This document shows positions 19,741-25,789 of a stretch of DNA of 64,000 nt, one piece after another. Source of the DNA: an uncultured beta proteobacterium (GTDB lineage Bacteria; Pseudomonadota; Gammaproteobacteria; Burkholderiales; Burkholderiaceae_B); contig CAIJKV010000339.1 in assembly GCA_903821335.1 (NCBI GenBank), positions 33,937-97,936 of the forward strand, in the 5' to 3' direction. Both the position numbers and the translations under genes were made by a program. The notes under the pieces were generated by a model. That model had not been told where the DNA came from, ran no database searches, and saw only the letters and a program-made list of their open reading frames with translations. The number at the start of each line of letters is the position of its first letter. The first letter of the stretch is position 1.

Positions 19741-19786
19741 TGACTTCTTAAGCGCAAACTGCAGGCCCCTGGTTAATCTGCTGTGT

Positions 19787-19829
19787 GTCGGGATCGTTTA
19801 CAGTGCTAAAAAGCACAACCATTCCCGAC
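19787..19829 (+). promoter_or_regulatory. nested stem-loop in the leader of the aldolase gene
   Basis: GTCGGGA (19787-19793) pairs with TCCCGAC (19823-19829), enclosing GTGCT/AGCAC with an AAAA loop (19803-19816). It ends 27 bases before the aldolase start. It lacks a T-run, so it is not a normal terminator of the isc operon; it may be an mRNA structure or a protein-binding palindrome. Confidence 0.45.
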
Positions 19830-19856
19830 TCGACACATTTCACGCAGAGACCATTC

Positions 19857-20651
19857 ATGAGAACAAACCAGATTCGTACCAAACTGGCCGCCGGTCAACC
19901 GGTCATCAATGGCTGGCTGGCCATTCCTTCGTCCTATAGCGCAGAGGTCATGGGGCATCAGGGTTTCGATTCAGTGACGATCGACCTGCAGCACGGGATG
20001 ATCGGGATCGATGCCGCGTTGTCGATGTTTCAGGCACTCTCGTCTACGCCTGCGGTACCGATGGCGCGTGTGCCATGGAATGATCCCGCCCAGATCATGC
20101 GGCTGCTTGACACCGGTGCTTACGGGATCATTTGTCCGATGATTTCAACCGTCGATGATGCAGTGAGCTTTGTGTCGTCGTGCCGCTACCCGCCCAAGGG
20201 ACAGCGATCGTTTGGCCCCGCGCGGGGGTTGCTGTATGGCGGCGCTGACTACTACCCACATGCTGACCGTGAAATCCTGACTTTTGGCATGATAGAAACA
20301 CGAGCCGGGCTCGATAATCTGGAAGCGATCCTTGCCGTGGAAGGGTTGGACGGGATTTATATCGGTCCCAACGACCTGGCGCTTGCGCTCGGGGCTGTTC
20401 CGCGCTCAGAGTCTGACGACCCGGTGGTCAAAGAGGCCGTCAAACACATTTGTGAACGAACCAAGGCGCATGGCAAGATCGCCGGCATTTTCTGTTCATC
20501 GGGCGAGGCAGCGGCTCGCCGTATCACTGAAGGATTCCAGATCGTGACCCCCGGCAATGAGGTCGCGCTGATGTCGATGGCCGCCAAAGCCGCCATCGCC
20601 GCGGCGCGCGGGGCGAAAGCCCCGATTGCCGCAGCTGGCAACGGTTATTGA
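19857..20651 (+). CDS. HpcH/HpaI-family class II aldolase
   Basis: A 264-residue TIM-barrel aldolase. The family cleaves 2-oxo-4-hydroxy acids into pyruvate and an aldehyde using a divalent metal. Visible elements are IDLQHG with the catalytic histidine, MARVPW, the metal ligand Glu in MIETRAGLDN, and the metal ligand Asp in IGPNDLA. GarL-type enzymes (2-dehydro-3-deoxyglucarate aldolase) and HpaI are both in this family, so the substrate is open. ATG 19857 is chosen over 19785, which would start inside the stem-loop. It leads a three-gene set with the isomerase-like and methylglyoxal-synthase-like genes. Confidence 0.88.
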   Translation: MRTNQIRTKLAAGQPVINGWLAIPSSYSAEVMGHQGFDSVTIDLQHGMIGIDAALSMFQALSSTPAVPMARVPWNDPAQIMRLLDTGAYGIICPMISTVDDAVSFVSSCRYPPKGQRSFGPARGLLYGGADYYPHADREILTFGMIETRAGLDNLEAILAVEGLDGIYIGPNDLALALGAVPRSESDDPVVKEAVKHICERTKAHGKIAGIFCSSGEAAARRITEGFQIVTPGNEVALMSMAAKAAIAAARGAKAPIAAAGNGY

Positions 20652-20700
20652 TCGACGCGGTCCATCGACACAATCAGGCGACCCATTCGGGAGAAGTGGC

Positions 20701-21471
20701 ATGGCACGGTTTTCTGCAAATCTGGGTTTTCTATGGGGCGAACTGCCGTTGCTCGAACGTATCGAGCGGGCGGCGCAAAATGGTTTCCAGGCGATCGAAT
20801 TGCACTGGCCCTACGACACGCCAGCCGAATCGGTGCGTGCCGCGTGCGCGCGCCTGGGGCTGACACTCCTCGCGGTCAATACGCCGCTCGGTAGCCGGGC
20901 GGGTGATTCCGGTTTGGCCGCCTTGCCCGGACGCGAAGAAGAGTTTCGGCAAGCTTTTGACACATCGCTGCAGTGGTGCCTGGGCAGTGGCGCGACCGCT
21001 ATTCACGTCATGCCGGGTGTGATAGAACCCGGGCAGCGTGCGCTGGCCACCGATACCATGGTGCGCAATCTCCGGTGGGCGGCCGACCAGGCTGGCGCAC
21101 ATGGTTTCACCCTCTTGCTCGAGGCCCTTAACCCGCGCGACAAACCTGGCTATCTGTATGCCACGCAAGAGGGTGCCAACGCCATCCGCGAAGCCGCGGA
21201 TCGCCCCAACGTCAAGTTGATGTTTGACGTTTATCACGTTGGGGTCGCCGAGGGCGACATTCTTACAAAACTGAAGTACTTCCTGCCGCACATCGGCCAT
21301 ATCCAGATCGCTGCGGTGCCCAGCCGTGCAGAGCCCGACGAAGGAGAGGTTCGCTATGAGGTGGTCATCCAGCAAATCGATGAACTCGGCTATTCTGGAT
21401 GGATCGGGTGTGAATATCGCCCACGCGCAACGGTTGAGGCGGGCTTGAAATGGTTGAAGGGGTATCAGTAG
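20701..21471 (+). CDS. hydroxypyruvate isomerase-like (Hyi/OtnI) sugar isomerase
   Basis: A 256-residue xylose-isomerase-type TIM barrel. It opens MARFSANLGFLWGELPLLERIERAAQNGFQAIE, as in Hyi/OtnI proteins. Metal-site residues are in LLLEALNPRD, MFDVYHVG, HIQIAAVPSRAEPDEGE and IGCEYRP. Family members convert hydroxypyruvate to tartronate semialdehyde, or isomerise 2-oxo-tetronates. GGGAGAAG stands about six bases before ATG 20701; the ORF-track start 20626 overlaps the aldolase. It overlaps the next gene by 22 bases, which suggests one operon and related chemistry. Confidence 0.85.
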   Translation: MARFSANLGFLWGELPLLERIERAAQNGFQAIELHWPYDTPAESVRAACARLGLTLLAVNTPLGSRAGDSGLAALPGREEEFRQAFDTSLQWCLGSGATAIHVMPGVIEPGQRALATDTMVRNLRWAADQAGAHGFTLLLEALNPRDKPGYLYATQEGANAIREAADRPNVKLMFDVYHVGVAEGDILTKLKYFLPHIGHIQIAAVPSRAEPDEGEVRYEVVIQQIDELGYSGWIGCEYRPRATVEAGLKWLKGYQ

Positions 21472-22379
21472 CAACGACGTTGCCACCTCGGGCAGGGGAG
21501 CCCCGGACGCTGCGGTTTGGGTTGGCTGCCAACCGGCTGCACCATGCCTCGGCGGACTCTGCCTGTTTTGACTGGCTACGCGTCAGTGCCTCAGGGATTG
21601 AGGCGCTGGAGATTGAGTTGCATGTGGTCGGACGGACCTACGATGCCATCGCGCGTGAAGGCCTGTTGCGTGGCTATGAAGGACTGATTCGCTATCCGTA
21701 TGGTCGCGAAGGCGGTCTGATGAAGCTTGTCGCACGGGTGACAGCGGCCCAGAACGACGCTGCGTCGCTCGACGGCGCCATCTACCTGGTGGATCCGGTT
21801 GATCCGTCGTCAATTTTTCCAGAGGCACTTGCGCTCAAGCGTCAGTGCATCACGCATGGCAGGCCGTTCATTTCAACCATGGCAGGCGCGATCGAGTGGA
21901 TTGAGGTCGAACGCATTCATGCGGGTCTGCGTCCCGACCGTCGCGTCGATAGCTTGTTTGATTGTGCTAACCAGTGTCTGGCACTGATTGCGCACGACGC
22001 ACTCAAAGACCAGATGCTTCAGTTCGTACACCATCATTTCGACTTGTTGTCGTCCTTTAACCGGCGCGTAGCGACCGGTACCACAGGCAAGTTGCTCAAT
22101 GAGATGGCAGTCCGTCTAGGCTGGCCTGCCGACAAGCCCTGGACCGACCGGTACCTGAGCGGCCCGATGGGCGGTGACGCACAGATTGCCGACCTGGTAC
22201 TGGACAGGCGTTGCCAGCGCGTGATCTTTTTTGAAGATCCGCATGTCGCCAGGCAGCATGAGGCCGATATTCAGTTGCTTGAGCGCGCAGTGCGTGTGGC
22301 GACGCGTGAGGCAACCTGCGCCACGTCACCGGTTGTCGCGCATCGCTGGGCCACTGCCGCAGTAAAACGCGGCAGGTAA
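21450..22379 (+). CDS. methylglyoxal synthase-like protein with duplicated domain
   Basis: A 309-residue protein, twice the usual MgsA length of about 150. The C-terminal half (about 175-305) retains MgsA active-site residues: His182 (ALIAHD), the phosphate loop TGTTG (209-213), Asp243 in SGPMGGD, FFEDP with Asp263, His270 and Asp273. These correspond to E. coli His19, the TGTTG loop, Asp71, Asp91, His98 and Asp101. MgsA turns dihydroxyacetone phosphate into methylglyoxal. The N-terminal half (about 22-160) has the same layout in degenerate form (YPYGREGG, IYLVDPVDP, FISTMAGAIEW). ATG 21450 overlaps the isomerase gene. The activity of the full protein is inferred, not shown. Confidence 0.75.
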   Translation: MVEGVSVATTLPPRAGEPRTLRFGLAANRLHHASADSACFDWLRVSASGIEALEIELHVVGRTYDAIAREGLLRGYEGLIRYPYGREGGLMKLVARVTAAQNDAASLDGAIYLVDPVDPSSIFPEALALKRQCITHGRPFISTMAGAIEWIEVERIHAGLRPDRRVDSLFDCANQCLALIAHDALKDQMLQFVHHHFDLLSSFNRRVATGTTGKLLNEMAVRLGWPADKPWTDRYLSGPMGGDAQIADLVLDRRCQRVIFFEDPHVARQHEADIQLLERAVRVATREATCATSPVVAHRWATAAVKRGR

Positions 22380-24684: not shown

Positions 24685-25789
24685 TCAGACACCTTGTTTG
24701 AGGCTGGCCTGGATAAAGGGATCAAGATCGCCATCGAGCACTTTCTGTGTGTTCGAGATCTCGACACCTGTACGCAGGTCCTTGATCCGGCTGTTGTCGA
24801 GCACGTAGGAACGAATCTGGTGACCCCAGCCGACATCGGTCTTGGCGTCTTCCATTTTTTGCTGTGCGGCCATGCGGTTGCGCATTTCAAGTTCAAACAG
24901 TCGCGACTTCAGCATCTGCATGGCTTCGGCGCGGTTACGGTGCTGTGAACGGTCGTTCTGGCACTGCACGACAATGTTGGTCGGCAGGTGCGTGATCCGC
25001 ACCGCAGAGTCGGTTTTGTTGATGTGCTGGCCACCGGCGCCGCTGGCACGGTAAGTGTCGACGCGCAAGTCGGCCGGGTTGATGTCGATTTCAATCGAGT
25101 CATCGACCTCGGGGTAGACAAACACGCTGGCAAAGGAAGTGTGTCGACCCCCTGACGAATCGAACGGACTTTTGCGAACCAGGCGATGCACGCCGGATTC
25201 CGTACGCAGGAAGCCGAACGCGTAGTCGCCTTCGATCTTGATGGTGGCGGATTTGATGCCGGCGACTTCGCCTTCGGATTCTTCGAGCAGCTCGGTCTTG
25301 AAACCTTTGCGTTCGGCGTAGCGCAGGTATTGACGCAGCAGCATGGAGGCCCAGTCCTGAGCCTCGGTGCCACCAGCACCCGCCTGAATGTCAAGAAAGC
25401 AGTTCATCGGATCGGCCGGATTAGAGAACATCCGACGAAACTCCATGCCTTCCAGCAGGCCCTGGAACCCATCCGCATCGGTTTCGATGGCTTCAAGGGT
25501 GGCGTCGTCGCCATCGTCGGCGGCCATCTCAAACAGTTCACGCGAATCGGCGATGGACTGCGCCAACGACGTCAGCGTCACGACGACGTCTTCGATGCTC
25601 TTTTTTTCGCGCCCAAGATCCTGGGCGTGTTTAGGGTCGTCCCAGACTTTGGGGTCTTCAAGTTCGGCATTGACAACGTGCAAGCGCTCGGCTTTTACCT
25701 CGTAGTCAAAGATACCCCCGGAGAGCCGACTCGCGCGTGGCGTAGTCGGCGAGGCGGGACGATATCTGGTTCTGGCGTTCGGCTTCCAT
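24685..25789 (-). CDS. prfB: peptide chain release factor 2, expressed by programmed +1 frameshift
   Basis: RF2 ends translation at UGA and UAA. The gene is in two frames: ATG 25789 starts 27 codons ending ...CTT, followed by an in-frame TGA (25708-25706). A +1 shift then reads GAC and continues to the stop at 24685, giving 367 residues against 365 in E. coli. The ORF track shows only the second frame from an internal Met. SPF (tripeptide anticodon, KSPFDSSGG) and GGQ ([10 protein letters not shown]) are both present. The order recJ-prfB-lysS matches E. coli apart from the inserted SDR gene. Confidence 0.96.
25705..25719 (-). promoter_or_regulatory. RF2 autoregulatory +1 frameshift site
   Basis: On the minus strand the site reads GGGGGTATCTTTGAC: an internal Shine-Dalgarno-like GGGGG, then CTT TGA C. 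This is the classical prfB arrangement (E. coli AGGGGGTATCTTTGAC). When RF2 is scarce, the ribosome pauses at UGA and slips +1 on CUU to continue. Confidence 0.95.

Follow-up and report, generated by a model that had tools for sequence, protein, structure and literature searches.

Methylglyoxal synthase (MGS; MgsA, described by the models NF003559 and TIGR00160) is the closest described system for the protein considered here. The known enzymes (E. coli 1B93, Thermus 1WO8, and B. subtilis 6F2C) consist of a single domain of about 125 to 160 residues and normally work as homohexamers. The switching of MGS has so far been studied in such single-domain enzymes, mainly as inhibition by phosphate. 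Because methylglyoxal is toxic, its synthesis must be controlled, and phosphate, ATP, 3-phosphoglycerate, and PEP have all been reported as MGS inhibitors (PMC8451662), which means that there is something to regulate. The fold also occurs outside MGS. In human CPS1, the activator NAG is bound by domain L4, whose fold is MGS-like (PMC4655335), and PurH (AICAR transformylase/IMP cyclohydrolase) contains an MGS-fold domain with the same superfamily fold.

The window, by which we mean the whole 64,000-nucleotide stretch of DNA that was analyzed, encodes a protein that differs from the known single-domain MGS in that it has two MGS-fold domains, arranged as follows:

21450..22379, + strand: two-domain MGS gene (P0001), starting with ATG and encoding 309 amino acids
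21510..21899, + strand: N-terminal MGS-fold domain core, residues 21 to 150 (AlphaFold2, Foldseek, hhalign, and residue table)
21900..21968, + strand: linker, residues about 151 to 173, joining the N and C halves
21969..22352, + strand: C-terminal MGS domain, residues 174 to 301 (NF003559, PDB matches, and catalytic residues)

The open reading frame (ORF) is present at the coordinates given in the sequence-only reading. A chance frame was considered and is ruled out by 80 named relatives; stops interrupt the exact reverse complement of 21450 to 22379 when it is read in frame. The relatives start nearer residue 17 to 20, so the true start may be slightly downstream of the ATG. Conservation is lower in the linker than in either half (mean majority share of 0.67 versus 0.87 to 0.88). 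A search of the window's genome recovered the two-domain gene as its only MGS, and triosephosphate isomerase and glyoxalase I are also encoded in that genome.

The C half matches NF003559, the methylglyoxal synthase equivalog model, with an E value of 6.7e-27 and 94 bits, which passes the cut-off of 84, and it matches solved MGS structures with E values down to 2.6e-18 (PDB 2xw6). Its scores are below the TIGR00160 cut-off (83.3 of 146.9 bits) and below the PF02142 gathering cut-off (19.3 of 24.1 bits). Positions were matched to those of E. coli MgsA, and the residue alignment gives these equivalents:

21993..22007, + strand: His182-Asp183...Lys186, equivalent to E. coli H19, D20, and K23
22074..22085, + strand: Thr209-Gly-Thr-Thr212, the phosphate-binding loop, equivalent to E. 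coli T45 to T48
22158..22178, + strand: Ser237-Gly-Pro-Met-Gly-Gly-Asp243, equivalent to E. coli S65 to D71, including the base D71
22236..22268, + strand: Asp263...His270...Asp273, equivalent to E. coli D91, H98, and D101

The active-site residues that the sequence-only reading had named in this half (His182, TGTTG, Asp243, Asp263, His270, and Asp273) were correctly identified, and the equivalents of H19, D20, K23, T45, T47, T48, S65, G66, D71, D91, H98, and D101 are invariant in all 25 of the 25 C domains compared. From this residue set we infer that the C half is the catalyst of the MGS reaction and would convert dihydroxyacetone phosphate (DHAP) to methylglyoxal and phosphate.

For the N half (residues 21 to 165), Pfam gave no match and NCBIfam gave only one irrelevant match below threshold. 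With shallow alignments (21 sequences with 61 to 80% identity to the query in the N-half region), AlphaFold2 returned a model of the N half alone with a pLDDT of 87.2 and a pTM of 0.82, as well as a full-length model in which the order of elements is identical in the two halves. When the N-half model was used as the Foldseek query, the 23 best PDB matches were all MGS, with a best E value of 6.2e-5 and target-normalized TM scores against MGS of up to 0.78; the domains of this fold in CPS1 and PurH ranked below these 23 structures. Profile comparison points in the same direction. When a profile built from 25 diverse N halves was aligned by hhalign with one built from 16 single-domain MGS, the match spanned the whole domain, with a score of 65.6, a probability of 96.9%, and an E value of 1.3e-10; in comparison, no more than 18.7 was reached in 100 column shuffles and 16.4 with the reversed profile. 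Furthermore, an N half encoded on an Acidovorax plasmid, which has diverged strongly, matches NF003559 directly at 1.5e-5 over its residues 22 to 147.

This signal became clear only once diverged members were included. Among close relatives only, the hhalign comparison of N with C halves was nonsignificant (probability of 1%), and the N profile searched against the PDB had the MGS structure 1wo8 as its top match with a nonsignificant E value of 0.23. The N half has probably remained unannotated because the signal among close relatives is too weak. MAFFT and hhalign both recovered the pairings between the two halves that had been drawn earlier (YPYGREGG with SGPMGGD, IYLVDPVDP with IFFEDP, and FISTMAGAIEW near the end), and the fold predicted for residues 20 to 165 is that of MGS rather than an unrelated one, which could have overturned the two-domain interpretation. 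Structure prediction, profile comparison, and the NF003559 match of the diverged member together show that a second MGS-fold domain makes up the N half.

The residues at its catalytic positions have been replaced. The most informative position is that of the general base:

21717..21719, + strand: Leu90, aligned with the catalytic base Asp71 of E. coli (residue table)

All 25 N domains compared have Leu at the Asp71 position, and none has kept His98, its place being taken by Ile, Thr, Val, Leu, or Met. Thr45 is replaced by Val or Leu and Thr47 by Arg or Gly (Val and Arg in the window's protein), and Ser65 is mostly Tyr. In the first loop, the alignment of H19, D20, and K23 is uncertain due to a four-residue insertion. 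Other parts of the site are retained: Asp91 is kept as Asp115 and the Asp101 position is Glu or Asp in all 25 N domains, Gly66 and the Gly69-Gly70 pair are still present, and Arg131, the equivalent of E. coli R107, is conserved across N, C, and single-domain rows. The N domains also have invariant residues at Asp118, Ser121, and Lys130, and Thr63 is mostly kept. The conserved motifs of the N core are VGRT, RYPYGREGGLMKLV, and DPVDPSSIFPEALALKRQC, and the most conserved stretch, DPVDPSSIFPEALALKRQC, maps together with Arg62-Thr63 and Gly85 onto the MGS active-site pocket. Since the catalytic base is lost, normal MGS activity is not expected of the N half, which we consider to be a domain that probably lacks MGS catalysis.

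The N half had been described in the sequence-only reading as decayed, and this description does not hold, as its conservation equals that of the C half. The median dN/dS was 0.042 for the N half and 0.047 for the C half, as estimated with simple Nei-Gojobori counts from 513 pairs of close relatives that are not independent of each other. Over 81 sequences, 50 of the 130 columns of the N core are invariant, compared with 56 columns of the C core. Substitution patterns of this kind indicate that the N half is under strong purifying selection and has invariant residues of its own.

Searches of named genomes gave 80 loci with full-length relatives at 67 to 80% identity, and Burkholderiales (Alcaligenaceae, Comamonas, and others) account for almost all of them. 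In the window's own family, 49 of 121 genomes were positive, all 49 with the two-domain form and none with the N half lost. A sample of 250 genomes from the order contained the two-domain form in 13 genomes and a single-domain MGS in 21, and no genome in this sample had both forms intact. The two-domain form is also found in one family outside Burkholderiales within the same class; it is widespread in Burkholderiales and present in another order, too. A stand-alone N-type protein was not found in the class and phylum samples (369 and 399 genomes, respectively), where all N-half matches sit inside two-domain frames. A two-domain MGS with 52% identity (L091:7953-8885, + strand) is encoded on a 365-kb mobilizable Acidovorax plasmid and adjoins an IS30 transposase, which suggests that the two-domain gene may move between replicons. 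One member of the family (L151, in genome G1099) has a single in-frame TGA, which may reflect a pseudogene, a sequence error, or a run past the stop.

Targeted searches of the Burkholderiales relatives found hscA/fdx upstream of the MGS gene and lysS/SDR/prfB downstream. These neighbors are unrelated housekeeping genes, and so the context is silent on the function of the MGS protein there. In the window, two ORFs that, from their sequences, we take to encode an HpcH/HpaI-type aldolase and a hydroxypyruvate-isomerase-like protein separate the isc genes from the MGS gene (19785 to 21471, + strand), the latter being as follows:

20626..21471, + strand: upstream isomerase-like (presumably hyi-like) ORF, overlapping the MGS ORF by 22 bases and belonging to the gene context rather than to the enzyme

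Aldolase- and isomerase-like ORFs were found beside the MGS gene in none of the 80 named relatives. At 25683 to 25745 (− strand) of the window, the prfB ORF is without a normal start, and CGGGGGTATCTTTGAC lies upstream of it, a match to the classic site at which release factor 2 undergoes its programmed +1 frameshift.

A longer form with two MGS domains, from a deep branch, is present in two genomes that belong to another order:

L142, 4646-6664, − strand: relative with an N-terminal MGS domain, a C-terminal MGS domain, and a PF04198 sugar-binding domain
L143, 8605-10233, + strand: relative with two MGS domains and a C-terminal extension

The PF04198 match of the L142 protein has 33.7 bits against a cut-off of 27 and covers only the last third of that domain; the C-terminal extension of the L143 protein had no match in Pfam. 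The L143 protein is 44% identical to that of L142 over its residues 22 to 493. On the same strand as the L142 gene are a PfpI-family gene (TIGR01382), the gene for glycerol-3-phosphate dehydrogenase (glpD), and a GlpR-type regulator, and the gene for glycerol kinase (glpK) is on the opposite strand. Glycerol-3-phosphate dehydrogenase yields DHAP, the substrate of MGS. The L143 gene is near zwf, edd, a frame that we take from its sequence to be eda-like, and a PfpI gene. In P. aeruginosa, PfpI is a methylglyoxalase that destroys methylglyoxal (PMC11987610). The gene context of this deep branch supports MGS activity and metabolite-dependent control, and by analogy the same may apply to the window's protein.

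The reading that we favor, with a probability of roughly 0.7, is that the two-domain protein is the sole MGS of the cell, with the C half (residues 174 to 301) as the catalyst and the N half (residues 21 to 150) as a noncatalytic MGS fold serving it. Purifying selection constrains the N half just as tightly as the catalyst, and no genome sampled has an N half by itself; its most likely purpose is therefore to serve the C half, probably in a regulatory or assembly role. It could be an allosteric sensor of a small metabolite (probably a phosphorylated one), or it could take the place of half of the subunits of the MGS hexamer, and these roles are mutually compatible. The more specific proposal that the N half is a dead MGS whose altered pocket binds a phosphorylated metabolite, thereby setting the activity of the C half, is one to which we give slightly less than even odds. 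We regard it as rather unlikely that the N half is a structural partner only, with the protein forming a trimer in which catalytic and noncatalytic copies alternate and the N half being conserved for its interfaces. Such an arrangement would agree with the whole fold and element order being kept in both halves, with the constant co-occurrence of N and C in the genomes sampled, and with the structural appearance of several invariant N residues (the GG at a helix start and Arg131, the counterpart of R107). However, a mere filler would need none of the residues kept at the active-site pocket (DPVDPSSIFPEALALKRQC, Arg62-Thr63, and Gly85).

The N half could also be a new catalyst with a different activity, perhaps on a phosphorylated substrate, which would make the protein bifunctional. 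Asp115 (D91), the acid at the D101 position (25 of 25), the mostly retained Thr63, the invariant Asp118, Ser121, and Lys130, and a dN/dS as low as that of the catalytic domain are all consistent with this idea, but a general base is absent at the D71 and H98 positions, no consistent neighboring enzyme points to a second substrate, and a separate N-type protein did not appear in the samples of 369 and 399 genomes. We consider a second activity to be improbable. The loss of catalytic residues from the N half would fit a decaying, functionless duplicate as well, a reading to which we assign almost no weight; it was rejected because it is contradicted by the selection test (median dN/dS of 0.042 in 513 pairs), and the invariance of 50 of 130 columns over 81 sequences and the retention of the N half in 49 of 49 positive genomes of the family also stand against it.

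In the domain tree, which is based on few columns and has long branches, the N and C domains form one clade each, so a single origin of the two-domain architecture fits the data. The N clade is set off from the remaining domains by about 10 substitutions per column, and because of such long branches, the tree is uninformative with regard to duplication versus fusion. One possible origin, which we hold only tentatively and at clearly less than even odds, is that a single fusion joined an MGS to a member of its superfamily that had diverged beforehand. The separate clades and the distance of the N clade (about 10 changes per column) would fit this, as would the hhalign scores, in which the N profile scores higher against single-domain MGS (65.6) than against the C half of the two-domain protein (28.1), although no stand-alone N-type donor was present in the samples of 369 and 399 genomes. 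An origin by fusion would be compatible with the favored reading of the function, in which the N half serves the catalytic C half.

No paper on a two-domain or N-terminally extended MGS was found in the open literature, and Pfam and NCBIfam yielded no curated model for the N half or the two-domain form; an existing family that already describes this protein, raised earlier as a possible objection, did not turn up. One two-domain relative carries the public label "methylglyoxal synthase," by way of its C half. For annotation, this means that half of the protein goes unexplained in groups such as Alcaligenaceae and Comamonadaceae, among them the well-studied genera Bordetella and Achromobacter. 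If the N half is indeed a sensor, this would be, to the extent of our searches, the first MGS found to carry its own regulatory paralogue, and the deep branch would have gained a second sensor, a sugar-phosphate-binding domain, within a glycerol gene cluster. The built-in noncatalytic copy is also a natural test of how a subunit of an oligomeric enzyme can be turned into a regulator or scaffold.

Compared with MgsA, the fold is common to both halves, whereas the catalytic residues are all in the C half and lost from the N half; the C half itself differs from E. coli MgsA in having an insert and in being without the C-terminal extension. Domain L4 of CPS1 resembles the N half in being an MGS fold that is fused to an enzyme and is without MGS catalytic residues, and it provides an example of such a domain at work in allostery. 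However, the enzyme that carries L4 is not an MGS, and the N half is nearer to MGS itself in the Foldseek comparison. The PurH domain, which ranks below MGS in that comparison, belongs to a protein with other chemistry and is a weaker match to the N half. The SorC/CggR-type sugar-binding domain (PF04198), which normally belongs to transcription regulators, is the third domain of the L142 protein and is absent from the window's protein; its presence in L142 suggests sugar-phosphate sensing in the two-domain MGS family. The fold and the reaction are thus known, and the two-domain form with a putatively noncatalytic N half is, as far as we have found, a new variant.
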